Part shown: piece by piece, positions 15,955 through 61,435 of the stretch | Layout: each line of letters opens with the position of its first letter | How positions within the stretch are numbered: position 1 is the stretch's first letter | Origin: Thermococcus nautili | Lineage (GTDB): Archaea > Methanobacteriota_B > Thermococci > Thermococcales > Thermococcaceae | Assembly: GCF_000585495.1 (NCBI RefSeq) | Contig: NZ_CP007264.1 | Coordinates: forward strand, 1,116,001 to 1,180,000 | Length of the DNA stretch: 64,000 nucleotides | Reading direction: 5' to 3' | Notes under the pieces: model-generated | Seen by the model: the letters and a program-made list of their open reading frames with translations, nothing else | Database searches by the model: none | What the model was told of the DNA's origin: nothing | Position numbers and translations under genes: made by a program

Positions 15955-17952
15955 CTATTTGATTTTAACTTTTCCTATTAACCTTTTGGCATCAACCACC
16001 GTCTCCCTCTCCCTCACGAACTCCACCAGTCTCCTGTAAGTCGGGTGCGAGCTCAGCGTCGAGGAGTCGCCTATCAGAATCAGCTTTCTCTTCGCCCTCG
16101 TCAGCGAGACGTTCAACCTCCTCAAATCCTTCAAAAAGCCCAGCTCACCCTTCCTGTTCGAGCGGACGAAGGAGAGAACTATGACTTCCTTCTCTCTGCC
16201 CTGATAGCCGTCCACCGTCTTGACCTCTATTTCTTCAGGCAAAAGCGAGCTTATCAAATCGCGCTGGTCGTCGTAAGGCGTTATGACGCCAATCCATTCA
16301 GCCTTAACACCGAGTCTCAGGAGACCCTCAACGGCTTCCTTCACGAGCCTCGCCTCGAGCGGGTTCTCCCTGCTCTCGCTTCCATACCTCTGCCTCTCGA
16401 AGCGGTCTTCTCTTCTGGCAGTATCTATGAAGACGAGCACGTTCTCTGGTTTAAGCACCTCAGCCCATGCATCTCCATCTTCCGGCGATTTCACTCCCAA
16501 ATCGGCTAGCGTTATTCTCCTGATGCTCTCGTCCGCCTCGATTCTACCGTCGTAAAATTCCCTGCTGGGAAACTCCATTAGGCGTTCGTTCATTCTGTAC
16601 TGGACGGTCAGCATCTCACTCTTTCCGGGATAACGCTCGATTAAGCCCTCGAAGAGAGTCTTGCTCAGCTCCTTTGCCTTCTCGCTGAGTATCGTGGGGG
16701 GCAACTGCTTGTGGTCGCCTGCCAAAACGAAGCGCCCTGCGCGGTTGATTGGGATGAGCACGCTCGGTATCGTCGCCTGCGTGGCCTCGTCTATTATCGC
16801 AACGTCATAGGAGCCGTAGTCAACCACTTCCAGCCCGGCCGAAGAGTTCGTCGTCAGAACGACGTCCGCTTCCCTTATTATCTCCCTCGCTATCCTCTCC
16901 TCCAGCTTCCTCGCATCGTCGAAGGTCTTCTGCACCTGCTCGTTGATTTTAAGCCACTGGGCCATCTCGCGGATTAAGCGAGCTGGAACGCCCCTCGTTC
17001 CTATTCCCTTCTCGGCCAGGCGGAGAATCTGCCTGTCGGTCAGCCCGCGCCTGTACTTCGGAGCGGGCTTCGTGAAGGTGTCTCGCTTCTCCTTCAGGTT
17101 CTCCCCGATTACGCGAAGCTCCCTCAGCTCGCCGTAAAGCTCGTGCTGGGTCATTAGGTAAGCTAAGGTCGTCTCGTGCAGGCCCCTTGAGACCCTGCTT
17201 GGGTGTCCGACGCGGACGACCTTCAGACCGGAATCAACCAGTCTCTCGACGAGGTTATCAACGGCCACGTTGCTCTCGGCAGTTGCTAAAACCCTGTTCC
17301 CCCTCGCCACCTCCTGCCGTATCAGCTCGACGAGTGTCCTCGTCTTTCCAGTCCCGAACGGCCCGTGAATCAGGAAGAAGTCCGGGCTTCCAAGGGCCTT
17401 CGCTATTGCCCTCCTCTGGCTCGCGTTCAAACTCTTGTCAAAGGGCGTGAACTCGACTTCCTCACCCCCTTCAGGCTCCCTCAGGCCGAGGTAGAGCTCT
17501 AAAGCCCTTCTCCCGCTCTCCCGGAGGTTTTCAAGGTTCTCAAGCCAGCGCTTGAAGGTTATGTCGTTGGCGTAGAGGTCTATCCTAACGCTTTTCAGCG
17601 CCCATTCCGGGACGGTCTCCAAAGCCACTGTTATGAACCGCTTCCCCTTCTCGACGACGGTTCCAACCAAATCGCTCTTCAGCGGGTCTCGTTTGCTTAT
17701 CACGACCAAGTCGCCGACGCTTATCTCCGTCTTGATTTCCCTCTCGCGCCCGTATCTGACGAGGAAGTAGCCGAGCTCCTCGCCGATTACCTTTCCGTTG
17801 AGGCCGAGAACAGCCCTTCCAACCTTCTCCCTCTCGCGACCGCTGAGCCGTCTCATCTCGGCTCTCATGGCCTCTATCTCAGCCTTCCGCTCCATCTCGA
17901 TGAGAACCTTGAGCTTGGCGATGAACTTTGAGAGCTTCTCGTTTTCGTTCAT
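15955..17952 (-). CDS. Superfamily 1B helicase, Upf1/IGHMBP2-like
   Basis: A 665-residue helicase. An N-terminal OB-like region (about 45-130) precedes the RecA cores. Walker A is GPFGTGKT (197-204), motif Ia is [16 protein letters not shown], motif II is [12 protein letters not shown], motif III is [11 protein letters not shown], motif V/VI is [20 protein letters not shown] with [11 protein letters not shown]. These place it with Upf1/Sen1/IGHMBP2-type 5'-3' helicases of DNA or RNA. TATA-like CCTTTTAAACGG near 17985-17995 puts the transcript start close to the ATG, with little or no leader. A C/D box RNA lies just upstream on the same strand. Confidence 0.95.
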
Positions 17953-17999
17953 TTTTCTTCCCGAAGGGCGAAGAGAAGAGCCGTTTAAAAGGTTGAGGG

Positions 18000-18055
18000 T
18001 GGTCAGCCCATGCGAGTTTCCTCACCGCTCGGACGAAACTTCCCTCATCATCCCT
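18000..18055 (-). ncRNA. C/D box guide sRNA (sR-type)
   Basis: Read on the minus strand this shows every element of an archaeal C/D guide RNA: box C ATGATGA (plus coordinates 18045-18051), a 12-base guide GGGAAGTTTCGT, box D' CCGA, a 3-base spacer, box C' GTGAGGA, a 12-base guide AACTCGCATGGG and box D CTGA (18003-18006). AGCTTTTTAACCCC at about 18072-18085 is a TATA box some 25 bases before the expected 5' end. It would direct 2'-O-methylation of two RNA positions. Targets were not identified. Confidence 0.88.
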
Positions 18056-18083
18056 GAGAGGGTAGAAGGAAGGGGTTAAAAAG

Positions 18084-18432
18084 CTAAGCCCCGTCCGTCT
18101 CTATCACCGAGACGATGTCCCTGTGGAAAGACCTGATTGCCCTGACGTGCCTTTCCTCAACCCTGCCGCAACAGGCGACGCGCTCGTAGAACCTCTCAAG
18201 CTCGTCGAGAAGCCACTCGAGCTGTCTCTTGGAGCTCTCGCCCAATCCGTTGCCCAGCAACTTTCCCCTCAGAAACGGCATGACCTCCGACGGTTTTCCG
18301 AGGGCGGCCCAGAAGAGACCTTCCTTTAGAATCTCGAAAAGCAACTCCTCGGACCTTGCGCTAACGAATGGTTTGGCCCTCCCCCCTGAGCTTTTCTGAA
18401 GCCCTCCTTTGAATTTCGTAACCCCTCCTCAT
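18084..18432 (-). CDS. Small unknown protein, probable one-base frameshift
   Basis: Reading from 18344 gives an 86-residue frame that begins with a TTG lacking any spaced ribosome binding site. A far better start exists at 18432: ATG with GGTGA 5 bases upstream, encoding MRRGYEIQRRASEKLRG. That frame stops after 23 codons. Removing one base from the run of six C at 18381-18386 (plus strand) joins the two into one 115-residue frame. The downstream part, EELLFEILKEGLFW...GKPSEVMPFLRGKLLG, is helical with two Cys (VACCGR) and no recognised family. The break is either a true mutation or a homopolymer sequencing error. Confidence 0.6.
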
Positions 18433-61291: not shown

Positions 61292-61349
61292 CGCGATGAT
61301 GAGTGATGGGCGAACCGAAGGGTGAGGAAGGAAAGGTGATCGCTGAGCA
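61292..61349 (+). ncRNA. C/D box guide sRNA, first of tandem pair
   Basis: Box C ATGATGA (61296-61302), 12-base guide GTGATGGGCGAA, box D' CCGA (61315-61318), 3-base spacer, box C' GTGAGGA (61322-61328), 14-base guide AGGAAAGGTGATCG, box D CTGA (61343-61346). This is a complete archaeal C/D guide RNA. CCTTTTTAAGG lies about 25-30 bases before the 5' end as a TATA box. The D' guide can pair with a GTTCGCCCAT-type stretch that I recall from the A-loop region of archaeal 23S rRNA; this needs checking. Confidence 0.9.
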
Positions 61350-61380: not shown

Positions 61381-61435
61381 GGGATGATGAGTTCAGCCTT
61401 GTCCGAGCTGTGACGAGGGAGTGACGGACTGACCG
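61381..61435 (+). ncRNA. C/D box guide sRNA, second of tandem pair
   Basis: Box C ATGATGA (61384-61390), 12-base guide GTTCAGCCTTGT, box D' CCGA (61403-61406), 3-base spacer, box C' GTGACGA (61410-61416), 12-base guide GGGAGTGACGGA, box D CTGA (61429-61432). CCCTTTTAAGC directly after the first RNA is its own TATA box. The D' guide pairs over 10 bases with CAAGGCTGAA, which I recall from archaeal 16S rRNA just before AACTTAAAGGAATTG. It is a paralogous architecture, not a sequence copy, of the first RNA. Confidence 0.9.

Follow-up and report, generated by a model that had tools for sequence, protein, structure and literature searches.

C/D box guide RNAs of archaea place methylation at the base lying opposite the fifth guide nucleotide (PMC7994747), and in Thermococcus kodakarensis 54 such RNAs have been verified by sequencing (PMC4247193) and 61 putative ones have been reported (PMC9014305). 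Dennis and others described double guides whose targets are distant in sequence and near in structure, and proposed a role for them in rRNA folding; in Nanoarchaeum equitans, the dual guides sR15 and sR17 target 16S helices 30 and 28 on their opposite strands (PMC4644070). Here we describe a C/D box guide RNA of Thermococcus nautili, genuine and strongly conserved, which lies on the minus strand at 18001-18055 of a stretch of 64,000 nucleotides that was analyzed as a whole (the window). We consider it very probable that this is an independently transcribed archaeal guide sRNA in which the D guide acts on U52 of 16S rRNA and the D' guide most likely on A351.

The extent of the gene (18001..18055, minus strand) is that of its match by the C/D models of Rfam. 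From 18051 to 18003 the minus strand carries, in order, box C (ATGATGA, 18045..18051), a D' guide of 12 nt (GGGAAGTTTCGT, 18033..18044), box D' (CCGA, 18029..18032), a D'-C' spacer of 3 nt (GCG, 18026..18028; the K-loop), box C' (GTGAGGA, 18019..18025), a D guide of 12 nt (AACTCGCATGGG, 18007..18018) and box D (CTGA, 18003..18006). The terminal boxes have the forms expected of archaeal C/D box sRNAs (C, RUGAUGA; D, CUGA), a short spacer separates the internal D' and C' boxes, and the guides fall within the 10-12 nt range, the D guide being complementary to 16S rRNA around its fifth base. A preliminary description of this DNA had proposed a third C/D box RNA here, with 12-base guides and a 3-base D'-C' spacer on the minus strand, and both points can be read directly at 18051-18003: the full pattern occurs at exactly three places on the two strands of the window (18003-18051 minus, 61296-61346 plus and 61384-61432 plus). 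The same pattern gave 0 matches in 200 first-order Markov simulations, which keep the dinucleotide make-up of the real window, and three occurrences are therefore above chance. When folded alone, the sRNA was no better than its shuffles (z -0.45), which is not evidence against a C/D RNA.

The other two C/D RNAs of the window are called by Rfam at curated scores. That at 61296-61346 (plus strand) matches sR1; its D guide pairs without a break over nine positions, 16S 1477-1485, at the extreme 3' end beside the anti-Shine-Dalgarno, and its D' guide fits 16S 1349. For the RNA at 61384-61432 (plus strand), the match is to sR60. Its D guide has one fitting site in tRNA-Asp(GTC), around the anticodon loop, and another at 16S 1353, and its D' guide has one at 16S 847; judging from these complementarities it is possible that this RNA guides two kinds of target.

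No Rfam family reaches its gathering score at 18001-18055. An E-value search returned many archaeal sR models that match this interval weakly, the best being sR28 (RF01136) with 34.4 bits. Membership in sR28 was rejected, as this score is below the cut-off of 39 and the guides differ: the alignment with sR28 covers the boxes and a portion of the D' guide (GUUUCG), whereas both guides differ from it over most of their length, so that the targets differ as well. We regard the sRNA as a new or uncatalogued member among the known archaeal C/D box sRNAs. It may well be among the T. kodakarensis C/D RNAs already held in the supplementary tables of earlier surveys; in the main text of a report on T. 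kodakarensis circular RNAs (PMC9014305), it was not found by coordinates or names. The sRNA is otherwise ordinary of its kind, a small guide RNA of heat-loving archaea, and it adds a strongly conserved guide RNA whose predicted methylation site is precise and testable and which the Rfam thresholds now in use fail to detect.

The sRNA is present in 57 of the 61 genomes of the genus, and the four genomes with no match are assemblies of 90 to 260 contigs. One of the 57 copies is cut by a contig end (L111) and was left out of later counts, and a weak second match (L112) was dropped. Across the order, a search by the combined guide and box pattern found the sRNA in 71 of 94 genomes, representing five of the six genera. 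In the sixth genus it was found with a sequence model made from ten copies, in 11 of 13 genomes (E below 1e-15); the interval inspected at each locus shows the RNA in 10 of these 11 loci, that of the remaining one (L214) being offset. The sRNA is thus present in all six genera of the order examined. When copies were compared under a strict pattern that allowed a D'-C' spacer of 2-4 nt, 71 of 76 loci fit; of the misfits, three have box changes (L006, L107 and L108) and two are guide matches that lack C/D boxes (L149 and L150). The D'-C' spacer is 3 nt in all 71 copies, and box D' is CCGA in 69 of them and CTGA in the other 2. Outside the boxes, the guides are the most conserved parts of the sRNA. 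All 71 copies agree at positions 2-11 of the D guide and at eight of the 12 positions of the D' guide (2-6 and 9-11), and positions 1 and 12 of both guides vary. The D guide itself served to collect the relatives in four of the five other genera, so its conservation is biased upward; this applies neither to the D' guide nor to the loci of the genus itself, which were not collected in that way.

We also examined how the sRNA relates to its neighbors. A TATA-like element, CTTTTTAA (about 18076..18083, minus strand), lies upstream of box C, beginning 31 nt before the G that precedes this box; the stop codon of an 86-aa ORF (18084..18344, minus strand; no Pfam match) immediately precedes it. The element is kept in most of the relatives compared, in agreement with the earlier proposal that the RNA has a TATA box of its own. 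In T. kodakarensis the median distance from a TATA box to the transcription start is 23 bp (PMC4247193); with such spacing, the 5' end of the sRNA would fall a few bases upstream of box C. A scan for bacterial promoter and terminator signals, a method unsuited to archaea, found nothing. As to the 86-aa ORF, it lies just upstream of the sRNA in 49 of 56 loci of the genus, in 2 of the 12 from genera g2 and g3, and in all 11 from g4.

Downstream of the sRNA, and outside it, is a 665-aa ORF for an SF1 helicase (15955..17952, minus strand; Pfam AAA_11 and AAA_12). Its ATG is at 17952, 50 nt from the end of box D, which agrees with the distance of about 50 bases in the preliminary description, where it was also suggested that the two transcripts could overlap or that the RNA could be processed from a longer leader. 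The element could be part of the helicase mRNA leader, either as an L7Ae-bound K-turn acting in cis or as an RNA released from the helicase pre-mRNA. The short distance to the ATG is consistent with such an arrangement, and 11 potential snoRNAs have been reported in 5'-UTRs of T. kodakarensis, some of which may be cis-elements (PMC4247193). However, a second TATA-like element, CTTTTAAA (about 17984..17991, minus strand), stands between box D and the helicase ATG, 39 nt before the latter. From its position it is likely to be the helicase's own promoter, and since it follows box D, transcription of the helicase would begin past the sRNA. The neighbors were surveyed at 56 loci of the genus, 12 of g2 and g3, and 11 of g4. 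The helicase lies within 300 nt after the sRNA in 41 of the 56 genus loci, an adjacency that favors a leader element, but the sRNA occurs without it in the other 15 and in every locus of the three other genera (0/12 for g2 and g3, 0/11 for g4); the constant linkage that a leader element would imply is therefore not seen. Moreover, both guides are conserved, which goes beyond a K-turn alone. A leader element thus appears highly improbable to us: varying neighbors and the position of CTTTTAAA after box D led us to reject a cis-element of the helicase, and overlap with its leader or processing from it is unsupported as a general mechanism, as CTTTTAAA intervenes and the neighbor changes between genera. 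Since the sRNA persists where the helicase is absent nearby, it is independent of the helicase. The adjacency is positional only and, among the genera examined, is confined to part of one; the neighboring helicase calls for no special explanation.

To find targets, the guides were compared with the organism's own 16S and 23S rRNAs, 43 distinct tRNAs (names given by ARAGORN at 44 tRNA places), SRP RNA and RNase P RNA. The preliminary description had looked to a complementary target of 9 bases or more in a stable RNA. The D guide has such a target, forming ten unbroken Watson-Crick pairs with 16S 49-58; the D' guide has no unbroken 9-base Watson-Crick site in any of these RNAs. The site of the D guide is the best of the 8057 sites in 16S, 23S, the tRNAs, SRP RNA and RNase P RNA. 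Among shuffled guides, 8 of 300 score as well, and an approximate energy score is equalled by 27 of 300. U52 of 16S lies opposite the fifth base of the D guide. The paired positions of this guide (2-11) are the fixed ones and its variable positions, 1 and 12, are the unpaired ones; a single genome of the sixth genus has G at position 11, by which a G-U pair with U58 is kept. From this complementarity, the D guide most likely directs 2'-O-methylation of 16S U52. The same nucleotide may be the target of Sulfolobus sR1, an assignment for which a literature search gave no confirmation.

The D' guide presents a less simple picture. Its best site among all RNAs examined is 16S at about 347-358, where A351 is opposite the fifth base and the pairing consists of nine Watson-Crick pairs, one G-U pair and one A-C mismatch; the first target scan required unbroken runs of 9 and therefore overlooked this site. 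Targets of the D' guide in tRNAs, SRP RNA or RNase P RNA were rejected, there being no better site in them. The genome contains three other exact copies of CGAAACTTCC.

Taken alone, the D' match is within chance, as 133 of 300 shuffled guides are as good and 193 of 300 are so on the energy score. This, together with the mismatch, would be consistent with an sRNA that has a single working guide, D acting on U52, and whose orphan D' guide is retained for RNP assembly or to act on a target other than rRNA. Orphan guides are common, and 28% of Pyrobaculum guides have been reported to lack significant complementarity (PMC7994747). We judge a single working guide to be possible but rather doubtful, since eight of the 12 D' positions do not vary and several genera share one best 16S site. 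For D' guides of the Thermococcus, g3 and g5 types alike, 16S 347 ranks first, also where guides of other genera carry GGAGATTTCG in place of GGAAGTTTCG. When two D' guide types were subjected to the same permutation, 5 of 300 permutations shared a best site and 0 of 300 shared one as good (8 and 6 of 300, respectively, with the energy score). Positions 7 and 8 of the D' guide swap from GA to AG across genera; with either variant one of the two bases pairs with 16S, so that exactly one A-C mismatch, at position 7 or 8, is found in 71/71 copies, which again argues against an orphan guide. Covariation of the D' guide with its target was considered as the source of this swap but was not seen, since genomes of five genera show 100% identity in the target stretch. 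The 82-nt stretch of 16S that contains the D' site was sought in 94 genomes: 62 of them match its positions 2-82 with 95-100% identity, 2 more had partial matches and 30 had none, the great majority of the latter being multi-contig drafts.

The runner-up for the D' guide is 23S 2114, and a site at about 23S 2114-2125 (A2118) could be its target instead of, or in addition to, 16S A351. This site is second best for three of the four D' guide types tested, and GCGAAACCTC is common to it and to the 16S site. It nevertheless scores below 16S 347 for each of these three types and is far from the target of the D guide, and we consider A2118 an improbable target. For the D' guide of the sixth genus, 23S 1006 ties with 16S 347.

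The position of the D' site within 16S also bears on its assignment. The Rfam structure of 16S pairs U52 with A343, inside a helix formed by 42-54 and 341-348. Starting at 347-348, the D' site adjoins the partner strand of the U52 helix and lies mostly just 3' of it; only 10 of 300 shuffled D' guides have a best site that close to this helix. The shared top site across genera, the moving single mismatch and this nearness to the U52 helix raise the D' target above a lone match, and on these grounds the target of the D' guide is likely to be 16S 347-357, with A351 as the predicted nucleotide.

If the sRNA is expressed and behaves as archaeal C/D RNAs usually do, its C/D and C'/D' motifs would be occupied by L7Ae, Nop5 and fibrillarin. 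Pairing of the D guide with 16S 49-58 would then lead to 2'-O-methylation of U52, and the D' guide would most likely bind 347-357 (A351), immediately 3' of the segment that comes to pair with the U52 strand. Because the D' site is beside the partner of the U52 strand, a single RNP could hold both sides of the helix during ribosome assembly. It is tempting to extend this to a dual-guide sRNA, found throughout the Thermococcales, that grips both sides of the U52 helix, methylates U52 and A351, and serves as a folding chaperone joining stretches 300 nt apart, the D' mismatch, present in every copy yet shifted by one base between genera, having been selected for weak, releasable pairing. We offer this fuller proposal tentatively and hold its chances to be somewhat short of even.

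In its boxes, 12-nt guides, 3-nt D'-C' spacer, GGG/CC ends and rRNA target, the sRNA resembles the archaeal C/D box sRNAs of the Pyrococcus/Thermococcus sR families; it remains under the gathering score of every Rfam family. It is like sR15 and sR17 of N. equitans, for which a chaperone role has been proposed (PMC4644070), in having two guides whose predicted sites are apart in sequence but close in secondary structure. It differs from that description of sR15 and sR17 in that the helix is the one holding U52 (49-54 with 341-345), and in that most of the D' site is located just 3' of the partner strand, its pairing including a mismatch. A two-sided grip on the U52 helix, if true, would be a further case for a role of such RNAs in the folding of rRNA.
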